Of a DNA stretch of 64,000 bases, positions 8,815 through 60,490 are shown piece after piece. Position 1 is the stretch's first letter; every line of letters starts with the position of its first letter. Source of the DNA: Opitutaceae bacterium (GTDB lineage: Bacteria; Verrucomicrobiota; Verrucomicrobiia; Opitutales; Opitutaceae); contig PLXR01000015.1 in the NCBI GenBank assembly GCA_003151495.1, positions 28,546 through 92,545 of the forward strand, written 5' to 3'. The translations under genes were made by a program, and so were the position numbers. The notes under the pieces were generated by a model, which was not told where the DNA came from, ran no database searches, and worked only from the letters and a program-made list of their open reading frames with translations.

Positions 8815-8842
8815 ATATCGGCCCGGCCCCGGCCTAAATTTA
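8815..8842 (-). promoter_or_regulatory. Sigma28 (FliA)-type promoter for flagellin
   Basis: TAAATTTA-N12-GCCGATAT on minus strand (consensus TAAAGTTT-N11-GCCGATAA). Confidence 0.8.
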
Positions 8843-8963
8843 GATTATTGGCAGCTAATTATTTTTTCGGCCCGCGCCCGTGGGGCTCCGGCGCCGACCC
8901 TCCTCCTCTGGGGAATGCGCCGGCAGAAGCCGCGAAAAAGGGGGCGATGGGTGTTTTCCGGGC

Positions 8964-8990
8964 TAAACTTTCCCGTGGGGGTGCCGATGA
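8964..8990 (+). promoter_or_regulatory. Sigma28 (FliA)-type promoter for fliD
   Basis: TAAACTTT-N11-GCCGATGA, 36 bp upstream of ATG. Confidence 0.88.
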
Positions 8991-9026
8991 AGGGCACGAC
9001 CACTAGTCTCTATACTGCGCGTACCC

Positions 9027-11000
9027 ATGGCCGGCATCCAAATTTCAGGCCTTCTCTCCAATTCTGCCTTCGACTGGAAGACGATTGTCTCCGAATTGAT
9101 CGCTGCCGACAGCGTTCCCATAACGAACCTCAAGGCGGAGCAGACCACGAACTCGAGCCAGGTGACCGCGCTCGGCTCCCTGCAGGCCGACCTGACGAGC
9201 CTGCAGACCTCCCTAGAGAACCTGCGCAGCGGCGACCTTTTCGCCGCCCGGACCGTGAGCTCGAGCAACTCCAACTCTACGTGGCAGTCCACGTCGGCGA
9301 ACGGGGCCACCCTTGGCGCCTACACATTCGCCGTGCAGCACCTGGCAACCCAGGCGCAGACCCAGGGAGCGACCGGGGTCGGCTCGGGCCTGAATGCGAC
9401 CGGCACCGTCACCGGGCTGACGATCGCCAACCTGAATGTCGCCACGCCGATCACGGCGGGCACATTCACCGTGAACGGCCAGCAGGTCACGGTGGCGACG
9501 ACCGACTCGCTTCAGGATGTGTTCAACAAGATAGCCGCGGGGACGGGCGGGGATGTGACCGGCGCCTACAGCCCGGGCGGCTCCGTACCCGTGTCCGACG
9601 GGATCACCCTCACGAGCGGCGGCGGCCACGAGGTGCTCCTCGGAGCCAACAATGACACCAGCAATTTCCTTTCTGTCATGAAGCTGGCGAACAACGGAAC
9701 GCCCTCCACCTCCAGCTCGGCACCCCTCGGCACCGTGGAGCTGTCGGCCCCCATTGCCTCGGCGCACCTGAGCACGGCGCTCACCGGGCTCGACCTGTCA
9801 GGAAACGGCTCGGTTACGATCAATGGCGTCACCATCAATTACAACGCGAACACCGACACCGTTTCGACCCTGCTTAGCCGGATAAACCAGTCCGGAGCGG
9901 GTGTTTCGATTACGTACGACTCGGCGAACAACAGGTTCAACGCCATCAACAACAACACGGGCGACGTGGGAATGGGCCTCGCCGACACCACGGGGACGCT
10001 GTTGGCGTCCATGGGCCTTACCGCCGCAAGCGGCGGCACCTTCAGCCATGGGCAGAATGCGCAGTTCACGGTCAACAACGGCCCCCCCCTGTCCAGCGCC
10101 AGCAACACGCTCGACAGCGCGGTGACGGGGATCTCCGGCTTCAGCGTGACCGTGAACAGCCAGACCACGGAGACGCTCCAGATACAGAGCAACACATCCT
10201 CGATGCAGAGCGCGATCCAGGACATGATCTCGAAGTTCAACACGGTCCAGACCGACATCCAAAACGACACCCAGATAACGTCATCGGGGGGTCAGGTTAC
10301 GACGTCGGTGCTCTCCAGCAACCAGGAGGTCGCGAGCTGGGCGAGCGACCTGAAGAACATGGCTTTCGATGCGGTGACCGGGGTCACCGGGTCGATCCAG
10401 AACCTGGACAACCTCGGAATCGGCTTCACGGGAACCTCGGGCCAGCTGTCCGTCATCGACAGCACGAAACTGGCCGACGCGCTGGCCAACAACCCGCAGG
10501 ACGTGCAGAACTTCTTCCTCACCGGCAACACGGGGTTTGTCGGGCGCATGTACGGGGGCCTCATCAAGCAGCTCGGCGAGAACACCAACGAGCAGGGCAA
10601 CCTGACCAAGGCCAACACCGACATAGGGACCCACATCACCACGCTGCAGAACCACCTCAACGACGAGCAGACGCAGCTCACCAATGCGTTCATCAGCATG
10701 CTGGACGCGCAATCCAAGGCCCAGTCGGAGGGCACGACCCTCACCAACGCTTTCTTCCAGAATTCCAGCAGCAGCAGCAGCAGCAGCTCCTGCTGGATCG
10801 CGCGCGCGGTCTACGGGGCGCGCAATCCGCGATGGCTCGTCTTCCGGTTCTGGCTCCTCCAGTTGGCGCCGGCCTGGTTCCGCGGCCTCTACCTGCGCCA
10901 CGGCGAGCGGTTCGCATCCTGGCTCGACGACAAGCCGCGGGTCAGGCACCTTATCCGACGCTGGATGGACGCGCGCATCGACCGGCTCCTGCACACGTAG
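9027..11000 (+). CDS. fliD: Flagellar filament cap protein FliD with unusual poly-Ser + CWIARAVYG C-terminal extension
   Basis: MAGIQISGLLSNSAFDWKTIVSELIAADSVPI...; FliD-like coiled C-terminal part; tail SSSSSSSCWIARAVYGARNPRW... Confidence 0.9.
   Translation: MAGIQISGLLSNSAFDWKTIVSELIAADSVPITNLKAEQTTNSSQVTALGSLQADLTSLQTSLENLRSGDLFAARTVSSSNSNSTWQSTSANGATLGAYTFAVQHLATQAQTQGATGVGSGLNATGTVTGLTIANLNVATPITAGTFTVNGQQVTVATTDSLQDVFNKIAAGTGGDVTGAYSPGGSVPVSDGITLTSGGGHEVLLGANNDTSNFLSVMKLANNGTPSTSSSAPLGTVELSAPIASAHLSTALTGLDLSGNGSVTINGVTINYNANTDTVSTLLSRINQSGAGVSITYDSANNRFNAINNNTGDVGMGLADTTGTLLASMGLTAASGGTFSHGQNAQFTVNNGPPLSSASNTLDSAVTGISGFSVTVNSQTTETLQIQSNTSSMQSAIQDMISKFNTVQTDIQNDTQITSSGGQVTTSVLSSNQEVASWASDLKNMAFDAVTGVTGSIQNLDNLGIGFTGTSGQLSVIDSTKLADALANNPQDVQNFFLTGNTGFVGRMYGGLIKQLGENTNEQGNLTKANTDIGTHITTLQNHLNDEQTQLTNAFISMLDAQSKAQSEGTTLTNAFFQNSSSSSSSSSCWIARAVYGARNPRWLVFRFWLLQLAPAWFRGLYLRHGERFASWLDDKPRVRHLIRRWMDARIDRLLHT
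10767..10787 (+). repeat. (AGC)7 triplet repeat inside fliD
   Basis: Seven tandem AGC units encoding the Ser linker. Confidence 0.9.
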
Positions 11001-11033
11001 CCGTACCGTTCACCCGCCAGCAGATCCGCAAGC

Positions 11034-11717: not shown

Positions 11718-11742
11718 CCCCGTTCGGCGGCCCAGATTTGCC

Positions 11743-11769
11743 TAAAGTCGCGTCCCAGCCGGACGATTA
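11743..11769 (+). promoter_or_regulatory. Sigma28 (FliA)-type promoter for flgM-like/fliS operon
   Basis: TAAAGTCG-N11-GACGATTA. Confidence 0.72.
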
Positions 11770-11839
11770 TGTCTCTAACAACCAACGGCGTTCCCTGTAG
11801 TACCCATCAGCGGCAGACCGTCCAAAAGTACGAGAGCCC

Positions 11840-12121
11840 ATGATAAATTCCACGTCCTCATCTGACCGGGCGGCGCGCACGGACAACGTGCTGCCTCCCG
11901 TTTCCAAGACCGTCGCACAGAATCCCGGCAGGGACCAATTCTCGGCGGCACACTCCGCCGTCCTTCACTCTGCCTTGGCAGCCCAACCGGAAATCCGGCC
12001 CGAGGTGGTCGCGCGCGGCCGGGCGCTGGCCTCCGATCCCTCATATCCCTCGCAGGCGATCCTGCGCAAGGTGGGCGAGGCGATCATGAAATCGCCTGAT
12101 CTTTCCGAGGACGGTCCGTAA
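11840..12121 (+). CDS. flgM: FlgM-like anti-sigma28 factor candidate
   Basis: 93 aa; IRPEVVARGRALASDPSYPSQAILRKVGEAIMKSPDL resembles the FlgM C-terminal region; precedes fliS. Confidence 0.65.
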   Translation: MINSTSSSDRAARTDNVLPPVSKTVAQNPGRDQFSAAHSAVLHSALAAQPEIRPEVVARGRALASDPSYPSQAILRKVGEAIMKSPDLSEDGP

Positions 12122-12135
12122 GCCCTAGGACGGCC

Positions 12136-12564
12136 ATGGTCGCCCAAGACTGCGCGCGCATGTACCGCGCGAACTCGGTACTCACTGCGAGCCCCGGCCA
12201 GCTGGTGCTCATGCTTTACGACGGAGCGCTTCGCGCCATGGCGCTCGCCCGGAAGGCGCTGGCGCGCCCGCCCGAGGATTGGGGGCGCATCGAGGAGGCG
12301 AACAACCAGCTTCTGAAGGCGCAGAGGATTTTCATCGAGCTGCAGGCCACGCTCGACATGGAGGCAGGCGACGGGAAGTTCTCCCAAGAGATGAGCAAGC
12401 TCTACGAGTATTACATCCGCAGGCTGGCAGAGGCCAATATGCGCAAGACGGTCGAGCCCGTCGTCGAGGTCGAGCAGCTATTCGGCCAGGTGCGGGAAGC
12501 CTGGGCGGAGATGCTCCGCAAGCAGGATCCGGCCTACACGAAGGGAACACGGAGCGCGGCCTGA
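12136..12564 (+). CDS. fliS: Flagellar export chaperone FliS
   Basis: YRANSVLTASPGQLVLMLYDGALRAMALA... Confidence 0.93.
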   Translation: MVAQDCARMYRANSVLTASPGQLVLMLYDGALRAMALARKALARPPEDWGRIEEANNQLLKAQRIFIELQATLDMEAGDGKFSQEMSKLYEYYIRRLAEANMRKTVEPVVEVEQLFGQVREAWAEMLRKQDPAYTKGTRSAA

Positions 12565-12929: not shown

Positions 12930-12931
12930 GA

Positions 12932-13354
12932 TCAGGCCGAAACGGCCGAGTCCAGGGAGGACAGGGCCTCAGGAGCCTCCGCGGCCACCGAGGGCCTGTC
13001 CATGACAGCCGGAGGGCCGCCGAGCCACTCGGCCGCGATCTTTCTCGCCTCGCCTGTCCAGCTGAGCTCGGGCTTGGAGTAGATGGATCGCGTGATGATT
13101 CCCTCGACCCCGGTCCACGAGAGCGCCGCCTTCAGGCAGGGCGAGGAGTCCGCAAGCTGGTAGCCCTGAAGGAAGATGGTCCCCTTGGGGCTGGCCGTGC
13201 CGCCGGCAGGGGCCATCCCGAGCTCAAGGCGGGCAACGCCGACACCGTAGTTGACCGTCCGCGCGCTCGTCCAGACCCCCTCGGGGGAGGAGGGCTGGTC
13301 AGCCTCGATGGAGCGTTCGATGTCGGAGAAAAAGGAGAGCAGGCGAGGAGGCAT
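12932..13354 (-). CDS. Hypothetical protein with its own sigma28-type promoter
   Basis: 140-aa ORF convergent with fliS operon; promoter at 13383-13409. Confidence 0.6.
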   Translation of the reverse strand: MPPRLLSFFSDIERSIEADQPSSPEGVWTSARTVNYGVGVARLELGMAPAGGTASPKGTIFLQGYQLADSSPCLKAALSWTGVEGIITRSIYSKPELSWTGEARKIAAEWLGGPPAVMDRPSVAAEAPEALSSLDSAVSA

Positions 13355-13382
13355 GGTTCAAAAGGGGACGGCGCTGGGCCCT

Positions 13383-13409
13383 CTATCGGCTCGTCGGGCG
13401 CAATCTTTA
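13383..13409 (-). promoter_or_regulatory. Sigma28 (FliA)-type promoter for hypothetical 12932-13354
   Basis: Minus strand TAAAGATT-N11-GCCGATAG. Confidence 0.85.
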
Positions 13410-13671: not shown

Positions 13672-15156
13672 ATGTCATTTGAAAAAGTACTAATCATCGA
13701 AGACGAGCCGGTTGTCCGCAACTTGCTGATGGAGATCTTCACGCGCCGGAAGTTCTCGGCGACCGTGGCGGAGACGCTCGGTCAGGCCGAGGCGCTCTTC
13801 AACCGCGAGTCCTTTGACCTGGTGCTGCTCGACCTGCGGCTGCCCGATGGCAATGGCCAGAATTTCCTGGAGCGTCTGGCCGTCCTTCCCTCGCGCCCGC
13901 TGGTGGTGATGGTCACGGGATACGGGTCGATCGAGTCAGCGGTCGGGTGCATGCGCGCGGGCGCATTCGACTATGTCCTCAAGCCCTTCACGCCCTCGCA
14001 AATCGACATCATCATCAAGAAGGCGCAGTCCTACAGGCAGTTGCTGCAGGTGAACCGCCTTCTCACGGACCAGGCCTCTGAGGACGAGGGCGCGGTCATC
14101 GGGCACAGCCCGGTGATGCAGCGGCTCCGTCAGATGATCGAACGGGTTGCCCCCACGGACGCCACGGTTCTCATCACCGGCGAGAACGGAACGGGCAAGG
14201 AGGTTGTCGCCCGCGAGCTCTACCGCCGAAGCTCCCGACGGCAGAGCCCGTTCATCAAGGTGAACTGTGCCGCGGTTTCCGAGAACCTGATCGAGAGCGA
14301 GTTCTTCGGGCATGAGCGCGGCGCCTTCACGGGGGCAACCGAGCGGAGGGAGGGGCGATTCGAGCTGGCCAACCAGGGAACGCTCCTGCTCGACGAGGTC
14401 AGCGAGATCCCGGCGAACCTTCAGGCCAAGCTCCTGCGCGTCCTCCAGGAGCGCGAGTTTGAGCGGGTGGGTGGCAACCGGACGATCAAGGTGAACGTGC
14501 GCATCATCGCCACCTCCAACCGGGACCTTCTCAGCTACATCGAGAAGGGGGCGTTCAGGCAGGACCTTTTCTACCGGTTGAATGTGTTTCCCATGCACGT
14601 CCCGGCGCTTCGCGACCGGGTCGAGGAGATCCTGCCGCTCGCCGAACACTTCCTGGCCCGGTTCATGCGCAAGCTTGGCGTCAAAGTGGCCGGTTTTTCC
14701 GACTCCGCCCGCAGCTCCATGCTTGTCTACCATTGGCCCGGAAACGTCCGCGAGCTGCAGAACACCATTGAAAGGGCGATCATCCTGACCGAGGCCGGCA
14801 GGACCGTCTCCGCCGCCGCGATGGGAATTCCCAGCACGGGAACGTTTGCCCTGGGCGGCGCGCTGCCGGAGGAAGATTCATCCGGGGACCCAGACGGGGG
14901 TTACCCGGCGGGTGACGGCGGCGAGAACTCTGCCCATGTACCCACTGCGGCACAGGCTACCGACCAGGCCGATTCCATCCTCAACATTGCCGAACTCGAG
15001 AAGCAGGCGATAAAGGCGGCGCTGGAGAAGACCGCGGGCAACCGCACCAAGGCCGCCGAGCTCCTGGGCATCAGCATCCGCACGCTTCGCAACAAGCTGC
15101 AGGAGTACCGGGGCAACGACGACGTGGTCGAGGTTGGTACAGACGCCGCGGAGTAG
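13672..15156 (+). CDS. NtrC-type sigma54-dependent response regulator (FlrC/FleR/FlbD-like)
   Basis: REC (DLVLLDLRLPDGNG), AAA+ with GAFTGA, Fis-type HTH (NRTKAAELLGISIRTLRNKLQEY). Confidence 0.95.
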   Translation: MSFEKVLIIEDEPVVRNLLMEIFTRRKFSATVAETLGQAEALFNRESFDLVLLDLRLPDGNGQNFLERLAVLPSRPLVVMVTGYGSIESAVGCMRAGAFDYVLKPFTPSQIDIIIKKAQSYRQLLQVNRLLTDQASEDEGAVIGHSPVMQRLRQMIERVAPTDATVLITGENGTGKEVVARELYRRSSRRQSPFIKVNCAAVSENLIESEFFGHERGAFTGATERREGRFELANQGTLLLDEVSEIPANLQAKLLRVLQEREFERVGGNRTIKVNVRIIATSNRDLLSYIEKGAFRQDLFYRLNVFPMHVPALRDRVEEILPLAEHFLARFMRKLGVKVAGFSDSARSSMLVYHWPGNVRELQNTIERAIILTEAGRTVSAAAMGIPSTGTFALGGALPEEDSSGDPDGGYPAGDGGENSAHVPTAAQATDQADSILNIAELEKQAIKAALEKTAGNRTKAAELLGISIRTLRNKLQEYRGNDDVVEVGTDAAE

Positions 15157-15197: not shown

Positions 15198-15224
15198 TAA
15201 GGTGCCGCCCGATTGGGCCGATTA
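15198..15224 (+). promoter_or_regulatory. Sigma28 (FliA)-type promoter for cheX operon
   Basis: TAAGGTGC-N11-GCCGATTA. Confidence 0.72.
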
Positions 15225-15265: not shown

Positions 15266-15796
15266 ATGCCCGCTACCCAGGAGATATCCGAGACCCTCAT
15301 CCGCAGCAACATATCGCGCGCGGTCTGTGACGTGTTCAAGACCATGCTCAGCCGGAACGCCGAACCTGCCGTGACGGTCGGCGATGGCGCCATGGCAAGC
15401 TGGCCCCCGATACCGGTGGACGGCGACGCCGTCCCGCAGGTCGTCGGAACCGTGGGGTTCATCGGCGATGTGAACGGCCTCATCTATCTCTACCTTCCGC
15501 TGCCTTTCGCGGAGCTTGTCACCAGCCACCTCCTCGGGATGACGGTGCAGGAGCTAGAGGAGGCGGGGGACGAGGTGGTCAACGACGCGATCGGCGAGAT
15601 CACGAACATGACCGTGGGAAGCTTCAAGAACGGGCTCTGCGACGCAGGATTCCCCTGCAAACTCACCATCCCGTCGATCCTGAGGGGCAGCAATTTCTCG
15701 ATCGAGCCCATCAGCTCGGTAAACCGCTTCATCTACAGCTTCGAGAGCTCCGGCCACAAGGTCGTTGCCGACATCCTGCTCAAGGCAGGCGACTGA
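15266..15796 (+). CDS. cheX: CheX-type chemotaxis phosphatase
   Basis: EEAGDEVVNDAIGEITNMTVGSFKNGL... CheX/CheC signature ExxN. Confidence 0.88.
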   Translation: MPATQEISETLIRSNISRAVCDVFKTMLSRNAEPAVTVGDGAMASWPPIPVDGDAVPQVVGTVGFIGDVNGLIYLYLPLPFAELVTSHLLGMTVQELEEAGDEVVNDAIGEITNMTVGSFKNGLCDAGFPCKLTIPSILRGSNFSIEPISSVNRFIYSFESSGHKVVADILLKAGD

Positions 15797-17693: not shown

Positions 17694-17720
17694 ATATCGT
17701 CCGGCCCCGTGGGGTCTTTA
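17694..17720 (-). promoter_or_regulatory. Sigma28-type promoter for cheW
   Basis: Minus strand TAAAGACC-N11-GACGATAT. Confidence 0.65.
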
Positions 17721-17742: not shown

Positions 17743-17769
17743 TAAAGTTTTACCCGGTAGAGCCGATAG
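17743..17769 (+). promoter_or_regulatory. Sigma28-type promoter for cheA
   Basis: TAAAGTTT-N11-GCCGATAG, one mismatch to enterobacterial consensus. Confidence 0.92.
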
Positions 17770-21579: not shown

Positions 21580-21606
21580 TATACGGCCCCGGGCGGGCTA
21601 ACTTGA
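21580..21606 (-). promoter_or_regulatory. Weaker sigma28-type promoter candidate for cheD
   Basis: Minus strand TCAAGTTA-N11-GCCGTATA. Confidence 0.5.
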
Positions 21607-32060: not shown

Positions 32061-32115
32061 CCTAGCCGAATAGTCAACGACACGCGCCAGGGATGGCGCG
32101 CCGTGAATTCCAAGG

Positions 32116-33783
32116 ATGGAAGCCCCGAGCATGACCACCTCCATCCCAACACCTTTTCCGAACGCGTCGCTCGATCCGAAGCGCGGCCCCGGCAACCCTT
32201 CGATGGACGCCTTTTCGTCCATATTCAGCGGCGCAGCGCCAGCGGGCCCGACAGTGCCGGGATTCCCCGCAGATTTTGAAAGCCTGCTGGGGACGCCCGG
32301 CGCGGGGGGGGCAAGCCCTTCCCCGAGGCCGACCGCCTCCGCACCGGCGCAGAGCCCAGCGGCAGGCGCGCCCGCGGTGCAACCGGGGATCCGGATCGGC
32401 GACCTGCCCAGGACCCGGCCTCCCGGGAGTGGGTACCCGGCGCAGCCGGGGAAGGTTGGCCCCGGCGTTATGCGCGACCTTGCCGAATCCATCGCGTCGC
32501 TCCTCTCGCCGCTTTGGACGGCAGTGCCCCAATCCATGGCGCCATCTGGGGGTGTTGCGGAGGTCGTGGCCCTGTCTGGGGATGCGCCGAACTCGGGTCC
32601 CGCCGGCAAGGCGGGGGTGGCCCCCGATAGGGAGGGCTCGGCCATTGTGATCCCACGGGAGACCCTCCCGCCTGCCGGGGGATCCGAGGCGGAGGCCGGA
32701 ACTTCCCTTGGCACCCCGGGGACGGGAATGCCCGTTGGAAGCCCGGATAAGGGGACGGTCGCCTCCACGAGCACGGTCTCCATGGTCCCAGACTCGACCG
32801 TTGCGCGGACTCTATTCCCGTCAGAACGGGCTGCTTCTGGCGCTACTCAGGGCGTACCGGCCGCGGCGACAGAAGGCGTTGCGCCGGCCCGGCCCGAAAT
32901 CCAAGGGCGGATCCCTTCGGCGCAGCCAGCGATGGCCCTCGCCGGAGGCCTTCCGATGGTGGCGGCAGCTGCGGGCGCCCCTGCCCGGGCCCGGGACCCC
33001 GGCTCCGATGCGGAAAAATTTGCCGCGACGTCCCAAGCGGGGCGCGTCGTCGCCGGTTGGGCGAAGTCGCCGCCAGAAAAAAACTTTCTAATGCATGGGG
33101 ATCAAAGTGTTAAGAGCGAGGTAGAAAGCGATGGCATCGGCGGTGCTAAATCGGGCCCGAACATGCCCTCAGCCTACACAATCAGCCGCGCCGCGGCCGG
33201 AACCCAAGCGGTGGTGGAGCCCGTCGTGCCGATGGGCGAGCCGCAGGCAAGCCCCGCTGTCGGGCAGGCGCCCGCCTTGCCGGTCACCCCCACGCTGGCC
33301 CCAGTGCTTGCCCAGCGCGCGGTGGAGACGGTGCTGAACGTGGTCGATGCCCAGGAGGCCAAGGCCGGCCAGGGCGGAATAGTGAAACTGGACTTCAACT
33401 TCGGCGGCGAGGCTCTCGCCGTGCACGTGCAGATGCGCGGCGGCGAGGTGCACACCGAGTTCCGCACGAACTCGGCCGAGCTCCGCACCGCGCTCTCAGC
33501 CGAGTGGCGTGCCGCCGCCACCCAGCGCGACCCCGAGGGTGTCCGTCTCGTCGAGCCCGTTTTCGCCTCCGGCGAGAGCGGCTCGAGCACGTCAAACGCG
33601 AGCGACGGATTCTCCCCGCAGAACCATAGTTCCCAGCATCAGCAGCCCCAGGGAGCGGGCGTGCCCGCGTCCCTTCGCCCCTTCCGGAGCGCAGGGCCGA
33701 GCCTGTTGGGCGATCCGGCCGACCTCCCGTCGCAGTCCCCTGTCATGCTCCCCACATCCCTTCACCTAGCAGCAGTCGCATAA
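32116..33783 (+). CDS. fliK: Flagellar hook-length control protein FliK
   Basis: Pro/Gly/Ala-rich N-terminal part; C-terminal VKLDFNFGGEALAVHVQMRGGEVHTEFRTNSAELRTAL; upstream of flgD. Confidence 0.85.
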   Translation: MEAPSMTTSIPTPFPNASLDPKRGPGNPSMDAFSSIFSGAAPAGPTVPGFPADFESLLGTPGAGGASPSPRPTASAPAQSPAAGAPAVQPGIRIGDLPRTRPPGSGYPAQPGKVGPGVMRDLAESIASLLSPLWTAVPQSMAPSGGVAEVVALSGDAPNSGPAGKAGVAPDREGSAIVIPRETLPPAGGSEAEAGTSLGTPGTGMPVGSPDKGTVASTSTVSMVPDSTVARTLFPSERAASGATQGVPAAATEGVAPARPEIQGRIPSAQPAMALAGGLPMVAAAAGAPARARDPGSDAEKFAATSQAGRVVAGWAKSPPEKNFLMHGDQSVKSEVESDGIGGAKSGPNMPSAYTISRAAAGTQAVVEPVVPMGEPQASPAVGQAPALPVTPTLAPVLAQRAVETVLNVVDAQEAKAGQGGIVKLDFNFGGEALAVHVQMRGGEVHTEFRTNSAELRTALSAEWRAAATQRDPEGVRLVEPVFASGESGSSTSNASDGFSPQNHSSQHQQPQGAGVPASLRPFRSAGPSLLGDPADLPSQSPVMLPTSLHLAAVA

Positions 33784-33789: not shown

Positions 33790-34272
33790 ATGTCCGTAAC
33801 ATCCGCCACAAACAGTCCCTCCGCTGCGGCGTCACTTGCCAACATCAGCAACTCCACCGTCACAGGCGCCCCCATGCCCCAGAAGACGCTCACCGCGCAG
33901 GACTTCATGAAGCTGCTCACGGTGCAGATGCAGAACCAGGACCCGTCCACGCCGATGGACAGCAACCAGGAGATGCAGCAGATCGTCCAGATCAGCTCGA
34001 TGCAGAACATGTCGACGATGACGAACGACCTAACGCAGATGACCGCGAGCCAGACCTGGACGCTCGCAAACTCCTACCTCGGCCGGCAGGTGACCATAAG
34101 CAACTCCTCGGGTACCCAGGTGCAGGGCGCCGTCACCGCGGTGGACACCAGCGGCACCTCGCCCCTCGTCCAGGTCAACGGGACCTACTACCCGCTGGCG
34201 AACGTCACCAATATCCAACTCCCAACATCAACACCCGCCTCAACCACCACTCCCAGCCCCACGTCGGGCTGA
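33790..34272 (+). CDS. flgD: Hook cap protein FlgD
   Basis: LTAQDFMKLLTVQMQNQDPSTPMDSNQEMQQIVQ. Confidence 0.95.
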   Translation: MSVTSATNSPSAAASLANISNSTVTGAPMPQKTLTAQDFMKLLTVQMQNQDPSTPMDSNQEMQQIVQISSMQNMSTMTNDLTQMTASQTWTLANSYLGRQVTISNSSGTQVQGAVTAVDTSGTSPLVQVNGTYYPLANVTNIQLPTSTPASTTTPSPTSG

Positions 34273-39843: not shown

Positions 39844-39859
39844 TGGCATCGGCGTTGCT
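39844..39859 (+). promoter_or_regulatory. Sigma54-type promoter for flhBAF
   Basis: TGGCAT-CGGCG-TTGCT (GG-N10-GC), predicted +1 about 5 nt before ATG. Confidence 0.75.
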
Positions 39860-39874: not shown

Positions 39875-40978
39875 ATGGCTGACCAAGAAAACGACCAGAA
39901 AACCGAGCAACCGACCGAGCGTCGTTTGAGTGATGCGGTAGAGCACGGGCAGATCGCAAAGAGCCCGGAGCTCAATGTCGTGCTTTCCCTTGCGGCTGCG
40001 CTCGGGGTGCTGGCCTTCACCGCTCAGACGACGGCGGACAGCCTTGCCGAATACTCGGTTTCGACCTTTTCGCGCTTTGCGACGACAAACGTCAACACCG
40101 ACACGGTTACGGTCCAGCTGGGCGAGATGATGTCCCTTCTCGGGCGGGCGCTGGCACCAGTCCTGGTGGCATGCATCGGCGCGGCTCTCCTCTCCAACGG
40201 CTTTCAGAGCGGTTTCCAGCTCTCGCCCAAGGCGATGACGGTAAAGTGGGACGCCATAAACCCGGCGGCAGGGTTCGGCCGCATCTTCTCGAAGAGCACC
40301 CTGGTCCGCACGGGCATCGACATCCTCAAGCTTCTGGCGATCGGGTTCGCCCTGTATGTGGGCGCCCGGACTTTCTTCGCGGACCCGCTCTTCACCGCCC
40401 CGGTCGAGACCGCATACCTCGGGCGATTCCTCTACCTGGCTTCCGTGGGCTTCCTCGGGAGACTCCTGTTCTCCTTGGGGATCATCGCCGGTATCAGCTA
40501 CGCGTGGGAGCGGTTCAAGACCTCGAAGGAGCTGATGATGACCAAGGAGGAGGTAAAGGATGACAGGCGCAGCACCGAGGGGAACCAGCTCATGAAGGGC
40601 GCCATGCGCCGCATGGCCCGAAGGCTGATGCAGAAGCAGATGCTCTCCGCTGTGCCTACGGCGGACGTGGTCGTCACCAACCCGACCCACTTTGCCGTAG
40701 CCCTAAAGTACGAGCGGGGAATCGACAAGGCCCCCGTCGTGCTCGCCAAGGGCGACAACCGCTTCGCGCTCCGCATCAAGGCGATCGCCGCCGAGCACGG
40801 CGTCCCGGTGATCGAGAACAAGCCCGTGGCCCGGGTCCTTTTCGCGATGGGCAAGGTAGGGGAGGTCATCCCGCCGGAGCTCTACCAGGCAGTCGCCGAG
40901 ATTCTGGCGGTCGTCTACCGCACGCACCGGTACTATTTCCACAAATTGAAGAGCCGCCGCCTGGAGGGAGCCGCCTAA
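39875..40978 (+). CDS. flhB: Flagellar export protein FlhB
   Basis: DQENDQKTEQPTERRLSDAVEHGQIAKSPEL...VVTNPTHFAVALKYERG (NPTH site). Confidence 0.98.
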   Translation: MADQENDQKTEQPTERRLSDAVEHGQIAKSPELNVVLSLAAALGVLAFTAQTTADSLAEYSVSTFSRFATTNVNTDTVTVQLGEMMSLLGRALAPVLVACIGAALLSNGFQSGFQLSPKAMTVKWDAINPAAGFGRIFSKSTLVRTGIDILKLLAIGFALYVGARTFFADPLFTAPVETAYLGRFLYLASVGFLGRLLFSLGIIAGISYAWERFKTSKELMMTKEEVKDDRRSTEGNQLMKGAMRRMARRLMQKQMLSAVPTADVVVTNPTHFAVALKYERGIDKAPVVLAKGDNRFALRIKAIAAEHGVPVIENKPVARVLFAMGKVGEVIPPELYQAVAEILAVVYRTHRYYFHKLKSRRLEGAA

Positions 40979-40981: not shown

Positions 40982-43141
40982 ATGCCCATCAGCTCGAACA
41001 GCTATATCACGAGGATCCTGGCCCGTGCCGACCTCATCTTCACCTTTGCCCTCTTCGGCACGGTCCTGCTCCTGGTACTGCCGATAGCGCCGTTCCTGAT
41101 CGACATCCTGCTGGCGCTCAACATCGGGCTCTCGCTCCTCGTGCTGCTAGCGATCGTCTACGTGAAGGACCCGCCGGAGTTCTCGGGATTCCCGACGATG
41201 CTGCTGGGCCTCACCCTGTTCAGGCTGGCTCTCAACATCAGCTCGACTCGCCAGATCCTGGTCCACGGATTCGCCGGCCACATCATCGACGCCTTCGGCC
41301 ATTTCGTGATCCAGGGCAACTACATCGTTGGGGCGGTCGTGTTCCTTATCCTCGTAGTGATCAACTTCGTGGTCATCACGAAGGGTGCGGGCCGCATAGC
41401 CGAGGTCAGCGCCCGCTTCACGCTGGACGCCCTCCCCGGGAAACAGATGGCCATCGACGCCGAGCTGAACGCGGGGATCATCGACGAGGCCACCGCCACC
41501 GCGAGGCGGCTGAAGATGCAGAAGGCCGCGGACTTCTACGGCGCGATGGACGGAGCCTCGAAGTTTGTGAGGGGCGACGCCATCGCAGGCATCCTAATCA
41601 CTCTGGTGAATGTCATTGGCGGCTTTGCGATCGGGGTGTTCCAGATGGGAATGTCACTGGGCGAGTCCCTGCAGAAGTTCACCCTCCTTTCGATCGGTGA
41701 CGGGCTCGTGTCCCAGATCCCGGCGTTGATCATATCGATTGGCGCCGGCCTCCTGGTCACCCGGGCCGCCGACAACAACAACCTGGGCACCCAGATCACG
41801 GGCCAGCTCATCCGCTACCCCCGGGCGATCGGCGTGGCGGCTGCCTGCATGGCGATCTTTGGGCTGATGCCCGGCATGCCGATGCTTCCGTTCTTCGGCT
41901 TCGCGGCGATGGCCGGGATCCTGGCTCGAACCCTCAAGGCAAGTGATGAGGACCGCCTGCAGTCCGATCCCAACGCCCGGGGCGCCGGCGCAAAGGGAAA
42001 GACCGCGGGAAAAGGGAAGCCGGGGGACGCCGGCGCCGGGGCGGCGACCTCGTCGCCCGCGGACGGCGACGTCCGCAAGCTCATCGACGTCGACCCGTTT
42101 GCCATCGAGATCGGCTACGGACTGCTTCCGCTTGCCGACTCCAAGGTGGGCGGGGACATGCTCTCGCGCGTCACCGGGGTCCGTAAGACCCTCGCAAGGG
42201 AAAAGGGCATCATTATCCCGCCGATATCGGTGCGCGACAACCTCGAGCTCGAGGCGAACGACTACCGCTTCCTGCTGCGCGGCCGGCTCATCGCAAAGGG
42301 GACGCTGATGCCAGGGCGTTTCCTCGCCATGAATGTCGCCGGCAGCAATATTCGGCTGCGCGGCGTTCCCACGCAGGAGCCAGTCTTCAAGCTGGAGGCC
42401 ACCTGGATCGACGAGGCCGAGAAGAAGACCGCCGAGCTCAACAACTTCACGGTCGTTGACCCGTCCTCGGTGCTCGTGACCCACCTCTCGGAGGCGCTGA
42501 AGAGCAACGCCCACTACCTGCTCGGGCGCCAGGACGTCCAGATACTCATCGACCACATCAAGGGCTCGCACGCCACGCTTGTCGCAGAGCTGCTGCCCGA
42601 CCTGGTGAACATCGGCGTCATCCAGCGTGTCCTCCAGAACCTCCTTCGCGAGAATGTCTCCATCGTGAACCTGCCGCTCATCCTTGAGGGGATCGCGGAC
42701 TTCGCCTCGCTTTCGAAGAACCCGGATGACCTCAGCGAGCTCGTCCGCAGGCGACTCGGCCTCTACTTCGTGCCCGACCTCGAGGTACGGCCGGGGGTGC
42801 TGAAGGCCGTCACCTTTGACCCGCGCCTCGAGCTGGCCCTCGCTGCAAAGGTGCACCGCACCCCCACGGAGGTCGGGCTCTCGCTCGACGCGGCCACCGG
42901 CCGGCACCTGCTCGATGAGCTGACCCGCCGCACGGCCGAACTCGCGGCGAAGGGCTCGCCCAACGTTGTCGTCGTGTCCACGGAGCTCCGCCTGCCGCTG
43001 AAGCGCTTCCTGGAGCCGTCATTCCCGCGCCTTACCGTGCTCGCCTTCCAGGAGCTGCCCTCCGCCACCGAGATCGAGAACGCCGGCATCGTGCCAGCCC
43101 CGGTGAACTTCGTGCGCTCGGAGATCAAGATCGCAGCCTAA
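40982..43141 (+). CDS. flhA: Flagellar export protein FlhA
   Basis: NIGLSLLVLLAIVYVKDPPEFSGFPTMLLGLTLFRLALNISSTRQIL. Confidence 0.98.
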   Translation: MPISSNSYITRILARADLIFTFALFGTVLLLVLPIAPFLIDILLALNIGLSLLVLLAIVYVKDPPEFSGFPTMLLGLTLFRLALNISSTRQILVHGFAGHIIDAFGHFVIQGNYIVGAVVFLILVVINFVVITKGAGRIAEVSARFTLDALPGKQMAIDAELNAGIIDEATATARRLKMQKAADFYGAMDGASKFVRGDAIAGILITLVNVIGGFAIGVFQMGMSLGESLQKFTLLSIGDGLVSQIPALIISIGAGLLVTRAADNNNLGTQITGQLIRYPRAIGVAAACMAIFGLMPGMPMLPFFGFAAMAGILARTLKASDEDRLQSDPNARGAGAKGKTAGKGKPGDAGAGAATSSPADGDVRKLIDVDPFAIEIGYGLLPLADSKVGGDMLSRVTGVRKTLAREKGIIIPPISVRDNLELEANDYRFLLRGRLIAKGTLMPGRFLAMNVAGSNIRLRGVPTQEPVFKLEATWIDEAEKKTAELNNFTVVDPSSVLVTHLSEALKSNAHYLLGRQDVQILIDHIKGSHATLVAELLPDLVNIGVIQRVLQNLLRENVSIVNLPLILEGIADFASLSKNPDDLSELVRRRLGLYFVPDLEVRPGVLKAVTFDPRLELALAAKVHRTPTEVGLSLDAATGRHLLDELTRRTAELAAKGSPNVVVVSTELRLPLKRFLEPSFPRLTVLAFQELPSATEIENAGIVPAPVNFVRSEIKIAA

Positions 43142-44492: not shown

Positions 44493-45290
44493 ATGAACCA
44501 TGCAGCTGAAACATTAACGGGCACGGATGCCAAACCCTCGGGCGCCGCTTGGCGCGCCTACGCGGGTGTTACGTCAGGCGCTGTTGATGAAAAGGAGTTG
44601 ATCGAGCGCTTTCTCCCCCTGGTCCGCAACGTGGTGGACCGAATCAAGCTCACGCTGCCGCCGCACATTGATGCGGACGACCTCTACAGCGTCGGCATAA
44701 CGGGCCTGATGGCGGCCGTGCGCAAGTACGACCCCCAACAAGGAAATACGTTCGCCAGCTACGCGTCGATGCGCATCCGGGGAGCCATCCTGGACGAGCT
44801 CCGCCGAATGGACTGGTGCCCCCGCAGGACCCGGGCGCGGGCGCGCAAGCTGAAGGAATCCATCAACGCCCTCGAGCAGAAGCTGGGTCGCGCCGCGACC
44901 GAGGACGAGACCTGCAAGGAGCTGGGCCTCACCCACAAGGAATACGCGAAGTGGCTGGAGGAGGTCCGTCCGGTAACTTTTGTCTCACTTGACCACCAGA
45001 CGGAGGGCGAGGAGTCCGATGGGGCTTCACTCCACGAGTTACTGGCCGATAAGAACGATACAACGGGTTGCGAGAACCTCGAGAAAGAGGAACTCCTGCA
45101 ACTTCTAACTCAACGAATGGCCGATTTGCCCGATATTCCACGGAAGATACTCGCAATGTATTACTTTGAAAACATGCGTCTCGCGGAGATCGCGGAGGTC
45201 TTCAGCCTGACGGAATCTCGCATCTGCCAGATTCACTCGCAGACCATCCTCGGCCTGCGCGCATTCCTCGGACGGGCTCGCAACCGCTGA
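44493..45290 (+). CDS. fliA: Flagellar sigma factor FliA (sigma28)
   Basis: DADDLYSVGITGLMAAVRKYDPQQGNTFASYASMRIRGAILDELRRMDWCPR. Confidence 0.97.
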   Translation: MNHAAETLTGTDAKPSGAAWRAYAGVTSGAVDEKELIERFLPLVRNVVDRIKLTLPPHIDADDLYSVGITGLMAAVRKYDPQQGNTFASYASMRIRGAILDELRRMDWCPRRTRARARKLKESINALEQKLGRAATEDETCKELGLTHKEYAKWLEEVRPVTFVSLDHQTEGEESDGASLHELLADKNDTTGCENLEKEELLQLLTQRMADLPDIPRKILAMYYFENMRLAEIAEVFSLTESRICQIHSQTILGLRAFLGRARNR

Positions 45291-47505: not shown

Positions 47506-47521
47506 TGGCATCGGCATTGCT
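47506..47521 (+). promoter_or_regulatory. Sigma54-type promoter for flgFG operon
   Basis: TGGCAT-CGGCA-TTGCT (GG-N10-GC), nearly identical to the flhB site; +1 about 3 nt before ATG. Confidence 0.75.
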
Positions 47522-51638: not shown

Positions 51639-51641
51639 CCG

Positions 51642-54878: not shown

Positions 54879-55346
54879 ATGAGAATCCTTCCCGACGTCA
54901 ACCCGGCCGAATTCGAGGCCCCCCATGCCAACTCGTTTGCCCTGCCGCAGGGACTGATCGGCTTCCAGGGGTACACGCGCGCGGAGCTCCTCTACCAGCC
55001 CGAGCAGCTTCCGTTCCTGTGGCTCAAGCTCCAGGGTCCGACGGACAGCATCTACTTCATCGTCGTGGAGCCCGCGGGCGTCGTCCCGGGGTATGATCCC
55101 GAGCTCTTCGACCAGGACGCGGCGGGACTCGAGCTTTCGGGCTCAGCGGACGCGCTTGTGCTGAACATCGTCTCGCTCAAGAACATGAACCCGATGGAGG
55201 CCACCGTGAACCTTGTCGGCCCGATCATCGTGAACCGCCGCACTAAGATAGCCCGCCAGCTCGTCGTGGCCAACTACTCGCGCTACAGCGCCCACTTCCA
55301 GCTCGTTGACTCTAGGACCCCGGCGGCCTCCGCCGCGTGCGCCTGA
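54879..55346 (+). CDS. fliW: Flagellar assembly factor FliW
   Basis: FALPQGLIGFQGYTRAELL...MEATVNLVGPIIVNRRTKIARQLVVANYSRY. Confidence 0.95.
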   Translation: MRILPDVNPAEFEAPHANSFALPQGLIGFQGYTRAELLYQPEQLPFLWLKLQGPTDSIYFIVVEPAGVVPGYDPELFDQDAAGLELSGSADALVLNIVSLKNMNPMEATVNLVGPIIVNRRTKIARQLVVANYSRYSAHFQLVDSRTPAASAACA

Positions 55347-55361: not shown

Positions 55362-55661
55362 ATGCTCGTTCTCTCCAGGAAAATCAACGAGTCCATCATC
55401 ATCGGCGATGGAATCGAGATTCGCATCAACCGAATCGACGGCGACGTCGTCAAGATCGGCATCATCGCGCCGCGTGAGATACCGATCTTCCGCAAGGAGG
55501 TCCACGCCTCTATCGCGGACACGAACCAGACGGCCGCGTTCAAGTCCCCCTCGGGCGGCGGCCTGATCGCGCTGCCACGGATGCACCGGCCGGCGGACCC
55601 GCAGGGCCGGGATGCCTCTCCCTCCACGCCAAAGCCCTTGTCCAAGGCCGACGCCGCCTGA
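55362..55661 (+). CDS. csrA: Carbon storage regulator CsrA with C-terminal extension
   Basis: [48 protein letters not shown]. Confidence 0.97.
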
Positions 55662-55689: not shown

Positions 55690-56550
55690 ATGAACGTCAC
55701 GAACACCACCACGCTGGCCGGCAACATCGGGCAGGCCAACGACATGCTCTCCCGCTCCCTGCTGCGGCTCTCCTCGGGCACGTCCTTCCTTGGCGCCGGC
55801 GACAACCCGGCCGGGCAGGCGGACGCGGCGAGCTACGATTCGCAGGCCGGCCGCATACAGTCGGCATCCACAAACGTCCAGAATGCGCTGTCGTACGCCC
55901 AGGCCGCCGACGGCTACCTCGGTTCGATGCAGCAGATCCTCTCGAGGATGGGCATGCTCGCCACTGAGGCAAAGGACCCGACCAAGACCGCGTCGGACGT
56001 CTCTAATCTCAGCGTGGAGTTCTCCGCACTCCAGGACCAGCTCCGCTCGACCATCGGGGGGCCCACCTCCGCGATCGGTGGCACGGCCGACGTCACCGCG
56101 CCCGCGGGGGCGTTCAACGGCGTCGCGCTGTTCGGAAGCGCCCCCGCACAGGACATCGGGGCGGGGGCGGGCACCAACGACACCATTGCGCTTCCCCAGC
56201 TCAACCTTCAACAGGGCGCGATGGCTGCGGTCATCGGGCAGGACGGCTCGGGCAACTTCAGCCTGGGGTTGACGGACCCGAGCACGGTCTCGACCCTTGA
56301 CAGCGCCGTCCAGCAGGTCGGTGGTGTGCAGGGCCAGAACAGCGCCTCGGAGGCCCGCCTCCAGATCGCAGCGGCCACCCTTCAGGTCGAGTCCCAGAAC
56401 ATCTCATCGGTCGTCTCAAGCATCGGGGACACCAATATCGCGGCGGAGTCCACGCAGCTGGCCAAGGCCCAGATCCTGGAGCAGGCGGGCACGGCCATGC
56501 TTTCCCACGCCAACTTGAACTCCGCGACGATCTACAAGCTCCTCGGCTAA
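55690..56550 (+). CDS. Second flagellin-like protein
   Basis: N-terminal flagellin-type helix and C-terminal ESTQLAKAQILEQAGTAMLSHANLNSATIYKLLG. Confidence 0.9.
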   Translation: MNVTNTTTLAGNIGQANDMLSRSLLRLSSGTSFLGAGDNPAGQADAASYDSQAGRIQSASTNVQNALSYAQAADGYLGSMQQILSRMGMLATEAKDPTKTASDVSNLSVEFSALQDQLRSTIGGPTSAIGGTADVTAPAGAFNGVALFGSAPAQDIGAGAGTNDTIALPQLNLQQGAMAAVIGQDGSGNFSLGLTDPSTVSTLDSAVQQVGGVQGQNSASEARLQIAAATLQVESQNISSVVSSIGDTNIAAESTQLAKAQILEQAGTAMLSHANLNSATIYKLLG

Positions 56551-56597
56551 GGCCCGGGAAGGGTACCCCGGCAGGGCCCCTCAGGGCGGCAGCCGGA

Positions 56598-59500
56598 TCA
56601 CCCCTGCGCCGTCAGTCCGTTGTGGACCGCGATTGCCAGCTCGTCGTTGGTGAACGGCTTCGACAGCAGTGAGACATTGCCGATCTGTGCGAGCTTCTCC
56701 GGAGAGATACGCGAGAAATAGCCAGACATGATCACCACCGGCAGCAGGGGCGCCACCAGCCGGGCCTCGGAGGCCAGGTCGATTCCCTTCATGATGGGCA
56801 TCGTCTGGTCGGTCAGAAGAAGAGAGAATTCACTCGGGTTCCGGCGCAGTGACTCGAGGCAGTTGACCGGCGAATCGAAGGAGGCGACCCGGTAGCCGAG
56901 CTTCCGCAGGGCTATCTCGGAAAGACTGCGCACGATGTCCTCGTCGTCCACCATCGCGACGAGCTGGCCCGTGCCGCGGGGCACCGAGTCATCCAAGACG
57001 TCAATCCCCAGGGCCTCGGACCTGGGCACCTCTGGAAGGTAGATGGTGAACGTCGTCCCTTGGTTCACGGAACTCTCCACGGAGATTGATCCCTGGTGCG
57101 CCTGGATGATGCCGTGCACGACGGAAAGCCCGAGGCCCGTGCCCTGGCCGACCTCCTTCGTCGTGAAGAAGGGGTCGAATATCCTCCTGCTCGTCTCCTC
57201 GTCCATCCCGTGACCGGTGTCTCGGAAAGCGAGCCTGAGGAAACGCCCCGGCTCCTTCTGGTTGAGGGCCTGCGCCTGGGCTTCTTCGAGCCTCACCGAG
57301 GCGAGGCCGATGTGCATTGTCCCTCCGTCGGCCCGCATGGCGTGCGCGGCGTTCGACCCCAGGTTCAGCAGCACCTGGTGAAGCTGGGTGGCGTCGGCTA
57401 GCACCCGGCCGCATCCAGCCTCCACCGCAACCTCGATCCGGACGGTGGCCGGGACCGTAGCCCGCAGGAACCGGCCCGCGTCCTCGACAAGTTGCCCCAT
57501 GTCCACGGGCATCCGCTCGGTCCCCGTCTGCCTTGAGAACGCGAGTATGTGGTCGATCAGCTCCCGTGCGCGCAGGCTGGCCTCCCTCGCGGAACTCAGG
57601 AACTCCCGGACGGGATCTCCCTCCGGGATCGTCTCAAGAGCCAGTTCCTGGTATCCGAGTATGCCGGTCAGAAGGTTGTTGAAATCGTGAGCTATGCCGC
57701 CAGCCAGCGTGCCGAGCGTCTCCATCTTCTGTGCCTGGAAGAGCTGGCCCTCCAGGTGGCGCCGCATCTCCTCGGCGTCACGCCTCGCGGTGATGTCCTG
57801 GAAGGCCCCGTATACGCGCGAGGCCTTGCCGTCCCTAGTCTGGGACCTCCCGAGTATGCGTACCCACAGCTTGTGGCCTCGAGCCGTGGACATCGGAAGC
57901 TCAAGGTCGAACCCGGATCCCGCCTCCGCTGCGTTCCTCATGGCCTCGGCAAGCGTCTCCCTTGCCTGGCCCGGATAGAATTCCACCGCCTTCTCAAGCG
58001 TCGGCTCATAGCCGAGGTCGACCTCGTGGATGCGGAACATCTCCGGGGACCATGTCATCTTCGAGGTGCCGACGTCCCACTCCCAGGCTCCGATCTGCGC
58101 CAGGCGGCTGAGCTGAAGGGACATCTCCTCGCCGTGGCGCAAGCGCTCCTCCATCTCCTTCCTGGAGGTGATGTCCGTCATCGTCCCGACGATCCGAAGC
58201 GGCCTTCCATTCGAGTCATAGGCGACGACCTTTCCCCGGTCGAGCACCCAGACCCAATGGCCGGACTTGTGCCAGAGGCGGTATTCGCACTGATACACGG
58301 ATTTGCGCCCCTCCTCGTACACGCCCGACGCCGCCTTGATCACCGGGACGTCCTCCGAGTTCCCCAGTGTCTGCCAGAGCTTCGTCTTTGCGGGCAGCTC
58401 CTCGGGCGCGTAGCCGAGCATCTCCGCGCACCGAGCGCTGCGGTAGATGGCCCCGGTGACGCAGTTGTGGTCCCAGATCCCGTCGTTGTTGCCTGTGATC
58501 GCCAGCTGCCAGCGCTCCTCGGTGATCCGCAACTCCTCCCGCAGGTCGTGCTCGTCCGTGATGTCGCTGTCGAAGCCGACCATGCTGTGCGGCTTGCTGT
58601 CGTCCTCGCGAAGCAGATAGCCGCGTGAGGCGACGAAGCGGACGGCGCCGTCGGGTCGGACGATCCTCACCGTGAAGTCAAGCTGGGTCGCCCCGCTGCG
58701 GAGCGTTCGGTCGATCGCCGCAAGGGCCTTCGGGAGGTCGTCGGGATGGACCCTGTCGTGCCAATCGCGGACCTTGCCGGTGAGTTGGGAACGCTCCACC
58801 CCGAAGATATCGAGCATGCGCTCGTCCCACTGGATCTCGTCGGTCGCGAAATCGTACTTCCAAACCCCGTATCCGGCGGCGTTCAGGACAAAGACAAGGC
58901 GCTGGTTCAGCGCCTGGACCGCCTGCTCGCGCTCGCGGTCCACCGTGATGTCCCTGTTCAGGCCGACCATGCGGACGACCTTTCCCTCGGCGTTGCGGTG
59001 CACGGTGGTGCGGGAGGCGATGTGGCGCACCTGACCGTTGGCCACGACGATCCTGAACTCGCTCTCGGCTATCGGCACGGCCGATGAGCTGTCGTCGTCG
59101 ACCGGACGCAGCCCCTCGCGGTCGTCGGGATGGACGAATGTGAGCCACGTCTCGAGGCGCCCGTCAAATTGGTCCGGGCTGACCCCGTAGATTTCGCACA
59201 GCTTCTTGTCCCAGACCTGGCGGCCCGTCGTGAGGTCCCAGTCGAACACGCCGTAGGCTCCGGCATGGAGTGCCAGCTGCATGCGCTCGGTGGTCTCGTG
59301 CAGCCGCCGGGTGCGCTCGGCAACCTGCATCTCGAGGTTGGCCGCCTGGTGCTGCATGCGGGCGAGCAGGGCATCTCGGGTGCCCTCGGCGTCGCGCCGC
59401 TGCCTGTCGAGGGCCTCCATCTCCTGCAGGAGGGAGGCCACGATCCCGAAGAGGACCACCGATAGGATCAGGACCACGAGGACTGCAAGATCCCCCTGGC

Positions 59501-60230
59501 CCGGAAGCAGGGGAATCAGCCACCAGGCGACGAGCGCGTAGATGATCAGGGGCGCGCTCACGCCGTACACGACGAGGCGCAGGGCTATGAATCCGAGCGA
59601 ATGGGATCGCGAGAAAACCGTCAGAATGGCCGGATTGAAACGCGTCAGCAGGAGGCTGGCCCCTAGAAGGAGGAAGCCGACGACGCTTCCCATCGAAACC
59701 CCCGTCTCGATCGCCCTCGGGTTGACCGCGTAGCCGGTCAGGGTGATAAGGGCGAAGTCGGTCACCAGAAGGGCAAGCCAGTTTGAAAGCGACAGCCAGG
59801 AGCGGCTCTGGATGCGGAGACTTGCGATAGCCAGGCCCGCTATGATGAAGGGCAGGGTGGTCGTGAGCGGGATCTGAGTGGCGCCTGTGCGTTCGCCGTA
59901 GCTGCTTCTGAAGAGCAGGTTGGCCAATCCCGGCTGCTGCCCTGCCAGGAAGGAGACCAGCGAATACGTGGCCAGCAGCGCCACGAGCGCAGCCAGAATC
60001 TGTGCCGCCAAGGACCGAAATCTGTCCTCCTTTCCCTGCATCATGAGGAGGGCCGCCCCGGAAAGCACGAAGCACAGCGCTGAGTTGGGGCTCATCGGGG
60101 ACCACCCTCGGTGAAAGGAACGGAGCAGGTCGATGTGCAGCCACAGGCCCGCCATTGACAGGGCTCCTATGGTGACCGCGAGCGCCGCGGCCAGCGCCGC
60201 GGAATGCCGCAATTTCGTCACTTCGATCAT
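56598..60230 (-). CDS. Hybrid histidine kinase: membrane N-terminus, multiple PAS domains, HisKA/HATPase, C-terminal REC
   Basis: TLAGGIAHDFNNLLTGILGYQELAL...GTGLGLSVVHGIIQAHQGSISVES...LLLTDQTMPIMKG. Confidence 0.93.
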   Translation of the reverse strand: MIEVTKLRHSAALAAALAVTIGALSMAGLWLHIDLLRSFHRGWSPMSPNSALCFVLSGAALLMMQGKEDRFRSLAAQILAALVALLATYSLVSFLAGQQPGLANLLFRSSYGERTGATQIPLTTTLPFIIAGLAIASLRIQSRSWLSLSNWLALLVTDFALITLTGYAVNPRAIETGVSMGSVVGFLLLGASLLLTRFNPAILTVFSRSHSLGFIALRLVVYGVSAPLIIYALVAWWLIPLLPGQGDLAVLVVLILSVVLFGIVASLLQEMEALDRQRRDAEGTRDALLARMQHQAANLEMQVAERTRRLHETTERMQLALHAGAYGVFDWDLTTGRQVWDKKLCEIYGVSPDQFDGRLETWLTFVHPDDREGLRPVDDDSSSAVPIAESEFRIVVANGQVRHIASRTTVHRNAEGKVVRMVGLNRDITVDREREQAVQALNQRLVFVLNAAGYGVWKYDFATDEIQWDERMLDIFGVERSQLTGKVRDWHDRVHPDDLPKALAAIDRTLRSGATQLDFTVRIVRPDGAVRFVASRGYLLREDDSKPHSMVGFDSDITDEHDLREELRITEERWQLAITGNNDGIWDHNCVTGAIYRSARCAEMLGYAPEELPAKTKLWQTLGNSEDVPVIKAASGVYEEGRKSVYQCEYRLWHKSGHWVWVLDRGKVVAYDSNGRPLRIVGTMTDITSRKEMEERLRHGEEMSLQLSRLAQIGAWEWDVGTSKMTWSPEMFRIHEVDLGYEPTLEKAVEFYPGQARETLAEAMRNAAEAGSGFDLELPMSTARGHKLWVRILGRSQTRDGKASRVYGAFQDITARRDAEEMRRHLEGQLFQAQKMETLGTLAGGIAHDFNNLLTGILGYQELALETIPEGDPVREFLSSAREASLRARELIDHILAFSRQTGTERMPVDMGQLVEDAGRFLRATVPATVRIEVAVEAGCGRVLADATQLHQVLLNLGSNAAHAMRADGGTMHIGLASVRLEEAQAQALNQKEPGRFLRLAFRDTGHGMDEETSRRIFDPFFTTKEVGQGTGLGLSVVHGIIQAHQGSISVESSVNQGTTFTIYLPEVPRSEALGIDVLDDSVPRGTGQLVAMVDDEDIVRSLSEIALRKLGYRVASFDSPVNCLESLRRNPSEFSLLLTDQTMPIMKGIDLASEARLVAPLLPVVIMSGYFSRISPEKLAQIGNVSLLSKPFTNDELAIAVHNGLTAQG

Positions 60231-60463
60231 TGAATCAGGGGAAATTTGAAAATCACTGGGGTCGTCCGAAAGGGCAATCTTTATGCAAGATGCGGTGGAT
60301 TAAGGGACATCGGCCCTTTATGGGACTTCAAGAAGTGAAATCTCCGGTCCGGCCGCGGCCGCCCGATCGGCAGGGAACCGGCCGAAGCGGAGGCTTGTCC
60401 GCCAATGGGCGCCGGGGCGGTGCCCTTTGAGCGGCATTGGGTTAGGAATTGGAGCGATTCCCC

Positions 60464-60490
60464 TAAACCGGCGGCTAACAGGGCCGATTG
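60464..60490 (+). promoter_or_regulatory. Sigma28 (FliA)-type promoter for TonB-domain protein / MCP
   Basis: TAAACCGG-N11-GCCGATTG, 15 bp upstream of ATG 60505. Confidence 0.75.

Follow-up and report, generated by a model that had tools for sequence, protein, structure and literature searches.

Sigma factors of the FliA/sigma-D family recognise nearly the same promoter sequence across phyla. Both the FliA class 3 regulon of Escherichia coli and the sigma-D regulon of Bacillus subtilis share their promoter core with the locus described here, along with the types of their targets (flagellin, filament cap, flgM, chemotaxis genes and a methyl-accepting chemotaxis protein, MCP), and the E. coli FliA consensus reads TAAAGTTT-n11-GCCGATAA (PMC2859248). 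Another layer of control is exemplified by the CsrA-FliW-flagellin systems of B. subtilis (hag) and Campylobacter jejuni (flaA), in which two GGA sites are present, one over the Shine-Dalgarno sequence and the other in a hexaloop hairpin, spaced by 21 nt in the flaA layout (PMC4894983). The ANGGAN hexaloop is a motif bound by CsrA/RsmE (PMC7652899), and the two-site repression of both hag and flaA is antagonised by FliW (PMC7652899, PMC4894983). Flagellar control in Verrucomicrobiota appears to be little studied, and no work on either a FliA regulon or CsrA-FliW in this phylum was found in the literature searched, whose coverage leaves out most subscription journals. Here we describe a stretch of 64,000 nucleotides (the window; positions 28546-92545 of contig PLXR01000015.1) from an Opitutaceae genome (4.1 Mb, 80% complete, of which the window represents 1.6%). 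The late (class 3) flagellar regulon that it carries is genuine and belongs to a known type. What is new beyond the known regulon is a family of 140-residue proteins, a pseudoknotted, CsrA-type leader of fliC and a tandem-hairpin leader of fliK, the function of CsrA at the leaders being a putative one.

Late flagellar promoters and their conservation

The initial annotation of this DNA proposed nine sigma28 promoters and fliA itself in the window, and all nine sequences are found where it placed them, as is fliA (44493-45290, forward strand), matching TIGR02479 with 235 bits (cut-off 189.6; E 7.6e-70). Scored against the pattern TAAA-N15-GCCGAT, exact matches precede fliD (8964-8988, forward), a gene for a 140-residue protein (13385-13409, reverse), cheA (17743-17767, forward) and the TonB_C/MCP genes (60464-60488, forward), while single mismatches are seen in the sites of the flgM-like gene with fliS (11743-11767, forward; GaCGAT), cheX (15198-15222, forward; TAAg) and cheW (17696-17720, reverse; GaCGAT). 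The fliC promoter (8817-8842, reverse) is a perfect match with a spacer one base longer (TAAA-N16-GCCGAT), as had been noted. The surprise expressed at a near-enterobacterial consensus was unwarranted, an E. coli-like consensus being what is expected for this sigma factor family. Over the window, nine matches with at most one mismatch are present, two of them (at 42201 and 63565) absent from the annotated sites, versus 1.4 in dinucleotide shuffles, and nine were reached in none of 100 shuffles. Among the window genes that were checked, no good site was found at flgK, fliW, fliA, motA or a second flagellin gene, as would be expected if the sigma28 set comprised late genes only.

Conservation provides the strongest evidence. 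A first set comprised orthologues from 22 named Opitutaceae loci; for each, the 210 nt around the upstream region were searched for the best site, and random windows of the same loci served as the null (2.2% with at most one mismatch). At this threshold, sites are found for 12 of 12 cheX orthologues, for 15 of 17 of the flgM-like gene, for 12 of 15 of fliD and for 15 of 22 of the gene for the 140-residue protein, versus 0% for the neighbouring control genes lpo, fliS, fliT-like and flrC and 1/12 for RR2. The remaining targets were assessed in a second set of relatives, with a random-window null of 1.9%. In this set, sites within the one-mismatch threshold are present for cheW in 12/29 orthologues, for cheA in 4/12 (9/12 with at most two mismatches, all nine at -52 to -69), and for the TonB_C/MCP genes in 3/13 (7/13 with at most two). 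The promoters of fliD, the flgM-like gene, the 140-residue protein gene, cheX, cheW and cheA are thus conserved in both sequence and position, far above background. The fliC site is supported because it is a perfect N16 match in the window and because relatives (L038, L042, L047, L048, L062, L069 and L072) also have N16 sites, which differ from the motif at one position or none. The spacer is variable at this gene: strong fliC promoters (at most one mismatch) have N14, N15 and N16 in 3, 4 and 4 cases, respectively, whereas 54 of the 56 strong sites of four other genes have N15. In sum, eight of the nine proposed promoters are supported, to different degrees, the TonB_C/MCP one only moderately. 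The ninth, cheD (21582-21606, reverse), reads TCAA-N15-GCCGTA, with three mismatches, and none of its 18 orthologues in the second set reaches the one-mismatch threshold; it is therefore not accepted as a sigma28 target, which counts against the set as originally drawn. The target annotated as a TonB-domain/MCP gene proved to be two genes, a small TonB_C protein (60505-60852, forward) followed by an MCP (60890-62851), behind the exact but moderately conserved promoter.

The targets themselves are mostly recognisable by their domains: the flagellin gene fliC (7886-8707, reverse; Pfam Flagellin_N and Flagellin_C), the filament cap gene fliD (9027-11000, forward; FliD_N and FliD_C), the flagellin chaperone gene fliS (12136-12564, forward; Pfam FliS, 2.2e-34) and cheX (15266-15796, forward; Pfam CheX, 3.5e-21). 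The 93-residue protein encoded before fliS (11840-12121, forward) is probably a divergent FlgM anti-sigma factor, judging from sub-threshold profile matches; a comparison with Protein Data Bank (PDB) chain 9wsf_B, a negative regulator of flagellin synthesis, was non-significant (E 0.25). Unlike the E. coli and B. subtilis regulons, the set in the window includes cheX, the TonB_C-MCP pair and the 140-residue protein, and the strong fliC promoters vary from N14 to N16.

Leader RNAs of fliC and fliK

Between its promoter and its start codon, fliC carries a structured leader (8705-8810, reverse) composed of a hairpin P1, a pseudoknotted P2, the CsrA-type hairpin P3, the Shine-Dalgarno sequence and the start codon. 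An alignment of 42 leaders reveals four helices, P1, P2, P3 and a pseudoknot that joins the P2 loop with the stretch before P3. All 21 pairs in this alignment have changed on both sides, with 137 compensatory cells, where shuffles give 42.5 and slid controls no more than 46; in P3, 98.6% of the cells are paired and two-sided changes occur in all 5 pairs. When helix partners are swapped between sequences, all four helices shorten (z 8.8 to 11.4). Another alignment (A7), of 36 leaders, agrees on both the nested helices and the pseudoknot; it overlaps the larger set in some genomes and, being aligned to the model, leans towards it. In the fold shown by this covariation, a hairpin and an H-type pseudoknot precede a second hairpin, which bears a CsrA hexaloop.

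The P3 hairpin of the window (TGCGAC-ACGGAC-GTCGCA; 8733-8750, reverse) presents a CsrA/RsmE-type hexaloop, and the Shine-Dalgarno sequence AUCAAGGAA (8718-8726, reverse) represents a second putative CsrA site, with a GGA-to-GGA distance of 21 nt as read from the sequence. Most leaders keep C-[ANGGAN]-G in P3 while the stem sequence varies freely, and AUCAAGGAA is nearly invariant across leaders (alignment A5). The arrangement is the one described for hag and flaA: a C-G-closed ANGGAN hairpin before the start, a GGA over the Shine-Dalgarno sequence (about 18-21 nt away), and both fliW (54879-55346, forward; Pfam FliW, 1.5e-26) and csrA (55362-55661, forward; Pfam CsrA, 7.3e-21; 99 residues, with a long C-terminal tail) encoded, the two being adjacent as in B. 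subtilis. Unlike hag and flaA, the Opitutaceae fliC leader is longer, with the 5' hairpin and the H-type pseudoknot upstream, no clear hairpin encloses its Shine-Dalgarno site, and fliK possesses a two-hairpin leader of its own.

As to the distribution of the fliC leader, searches of Rfam 15 gave no match near the gathering score or with E<1, also over 11 further leaders. A covariance model (R1), whose training set includes the window copy, scores that copy with 74.9 bits (E 6.6e-17), and among the 95 whole genomes in which both proteins and leaders were searched it recognises 66 copies in 35 genomes, all preceding flagellin reading frames: 63 stand directly before a flagellin from the protein search, and three are at contig ends, where the flagellin start reads on. 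In a phylum-wide draw of 289 genomes the leader is present in 17, of which 15 belong to the same family, one to another order of the class and one is borderline; in the genome of the other order it also precedes flagellins. The leader is thus placed exclusively before flagellins. It also co-occurs with FliW, which is found in 30 of the 35 genomes with the leader versus 11 of the 60 others (Fisher p 9e-11, a test that ignores relatedness). A second, divergent flagellin gene of the window (55705-56550, forward), right after csrA, has neither a sigma28 site nor the leader element.

The fliK-like gene (32131-33783, forward) lies directly upstream of flgD (33790-34272); its reading frame has no Pfam match, and its name rests on this position and on synteny. 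Just before its start codon are tandem CsrA-type hairpins (CGCGCC-AGGGAT-GGCGCG and TTCC-AAGGAT-GGAA; 32083-32121, forward), the second overlying the Shine-Dalgarno sequence. Of 13 fliK leaders, that of the window included, 11 show this arrangement of two hairpins, with varied stems and GGA-to-GGA distances of 22-24 nt in ten and 44 nt in one; swapping of partners among the 11 sequences gives p 0.015 and 0.0001. When the window is searched for ANGGAN hairpins whose stems measure 6 bp or more, only the fliC and fliK leaders are returned, and shuffles return the same number (2.0), so that it is conservation, and not number, that supports these hairpins. The fliC-leader model scores the fliK leaders poorly (E 0.1 to 0.9), and these are thus a separate, simpler type. 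In a Campylobacter CsrA pull-down, fliK appeared at low enrichment, 4.1-fold and 1.2-fold (PMC4894983); none of the titles and abstracts searched, in a literature of incomplete coverage, described fliK as directly controlled by CsrA.

Could the fliC leader have a different function? It might be a metabolite riboswitch, or a platform for a protein other than CsrA, with the pseudoknot acting as the sensor and the CsrA-like hairpin being coincidental, and the conservation of a pseudoknot that lies outside the mechanism described for hag and flaA, in an element without a matching Rfam family, would agree with this. However, a coincidental hairpin would hardly keep its closed hexaloop in most leaders despite changes in the stem, nor would the same hairpin type be expected twice in the fliK leader, and the presence of fliW and csrA, with FliW following the leader across genomes, also speaks for CsrA; we consider this explanation unlikely. 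It is very unlikely that the leader merely stabilises an abundant flagellin mRNA without regulating it: abundance is typical of flagellin mRNAs, and stable structures are often found at 5' ends, but the conserved loop letters ACGGA and the conserved AUCAAGGAA exceed what stability needs.

A motility-linked protein family and neighbouring genes

The gene behind the exact promoter at 13385-13409 (12932-13354, reverse) encodes a protein of 140 residues for which profile searches of Pfam, NCBIfam and the PDB gave no relative, and which founds an undescribed family. AlphaFold2 predicts a confident alpha-beta5-alpha core (mean pLDDT 81) with residues 119-140 disordered, and neither the PDB nor the viral models contain a fold that matches this model at E<=0.001. 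Homologues were scanned for with a tight set, a profile built from 20 homologues having proved too divergent; they are present in 21 of the 95 genomes, all of the same family (Opitutaceae), and all 21 encode FliA. Within the genus, FliA and the 140-residue protein gene are confined to one and the same set of four genomes (Fisher p 0.0014), while 9 of the 13 genomes have neither FliA above the cut-off nor this gene, and motility thus seems to have been lost or gained within one genus. The protein is a late, motility-linked and probably soluble one; our best guess, held with low confidence, is a structural or regulatory accessory of the filament or of chemotaxis. Two known small proteins were considered. 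FlgV, a small flagellum-linked protein reported from PVC bacteria and other phyla (PMC11607428), resembles it in size and in its link to motility, but was rejected because FlgV has two transmembrane helices, versus the predicted alpha-beta5-alpha. An Hfq-like identity was rejected on the same prediction and on the lack of a fold match at the above threshold.

Several other features of the window deserve mention. Past the FliD_C domain, FliD continues for roughly 65-70 residues, with a run of serines and a basic tail (CWIARAVYG...). A protein with TPR and glycosyltransferase-41 domains (5146-7521, reverse) adjoins fliC and is possibly involved in flagellin glycosylation. The flrC gene encodes an NtrC/FlrC-type sigma54 activator (13672-15156, forward; Pfam Response_reg, Sigma54_activat and HTH_8). 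Two sigma54 sites are found versus 1.5 by chance; these near-identical sequences, TGGCATCGGCRTTGCT, are at 39844-39859 and 47506-47521 (forward), a count not above chance, the first about 15 nt before a reading frame at 39875.

The proposed circuit and its significance

Taken together, these observations are in all probability explained by a class 3 regulon in which FliA-driven promoters are combined with a CsrA/FliW-controlled fliC leader. FliA would direct RNA polymerase to the TAAA-N15-GCCGAT promoters, a use suggested by their conservation, with fliC (through N16), fliD, the divergent flgM with fliS, cheX, cheW, cheA, the TonB_C-MCP pair and the 140-residue protein as its targets, and the flgM-like protein would restrain FliA until completion of the hook. 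The fliC transcript would then be subject to a second control by its 5' leader, with the P3 hexaloop 21 nt before the CsrA-like Shine-Dalgarno sequence. By analogy with Bacillus hag and Campylobacter flaA, a CsrA dimer may bridge P3 and the Shine-Dalgarno sequence, blocking translation, and FliW may relieve this block during flagellin export. The simplest role of the pseudoknot would be to keep P3 and the Shine-Dalgarno sequence apart and accessible; a bolder one would be sensing.

Some of the data do not sit easily with this explanation. For many of the fliC copies of relatives, a good sigma28 site is lacking. For the assignment of the flgM-like protein the profile matches are non-significant: five of the 17 members match Pfam FlgM (PF04316), the best with E 0.041, and a single one matches TIGR03824 (E 0.018). 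The pseudoknot helix of the window itself is among the weaker ones (score 4), and no FliW was detected in five of the genomes with the leader, three of which are in 340 to 640 contigs. The related genomes are non-independent samples, so that the p-values are overstated. Finally, the density of the promoter motif over the whole genome is near background, without enrichment: exact matches number 6 versus 4 for the pattern read backwards, and matches with one mismatch 133 versus 98. Four of the six exact matches are those in the window, upstream of motility genes, and the other two lie within metG and a solute-symporter gene. Sequence alone therefore cannot call such promoters elsewhere in this genome, and functional sites are identified by location and conservation rather than by density. 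Counting of the motif over the genome was rejected as a proof, the counts being close to the reversed control, and a motif excess was not used as a family-wide marker of FliA, since counts are not above the control in most genomes. The initial annotation had held that random density genome-wide would speak against its promoters; the density is indeed near background, but the location and the conservation of the sites are non-random.

That the sites are chance matches, picked because the genes looked right, with transcription coming from sigma70 or sigma54 promoters, is hardly credible in spite of these genome-wide counts, as it is contradicted by the excess of window matches over shuffles and, for fliD, the flgM-like gene, cheX, the 140-residue protein gene and cheW, by conservation at similar distances upstream of orthologues in many genera, with none at neighbouring control genes, though the cheD site may be such a chance match.

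A more far-reaching version of the proposed circuit, which we regard as rather doubtful, would have the leader represent a new class of flagellin-control RNA whose pseudoknot senses or switches beyond a CsrA platform, together with a CsrA-FliW control of fliK that feeds flagellin back-pressure into hook-length control, and with the new late protein family taking part in motility. For the Opitutaceae, conservation across genomes provides a tested list of late flagellar targets and a motility-tied protein family of unassigned function. The structured flagellin leader fits the CsrA-FliW circuit of Bacillus and Campylobacter, to which it adds a pseudoknot not described for those leaders, and, together with the tandem hairpins of fliK, it raises the testable question of whether the flagellin-FliW-CsrA switch may also set hook-length control.

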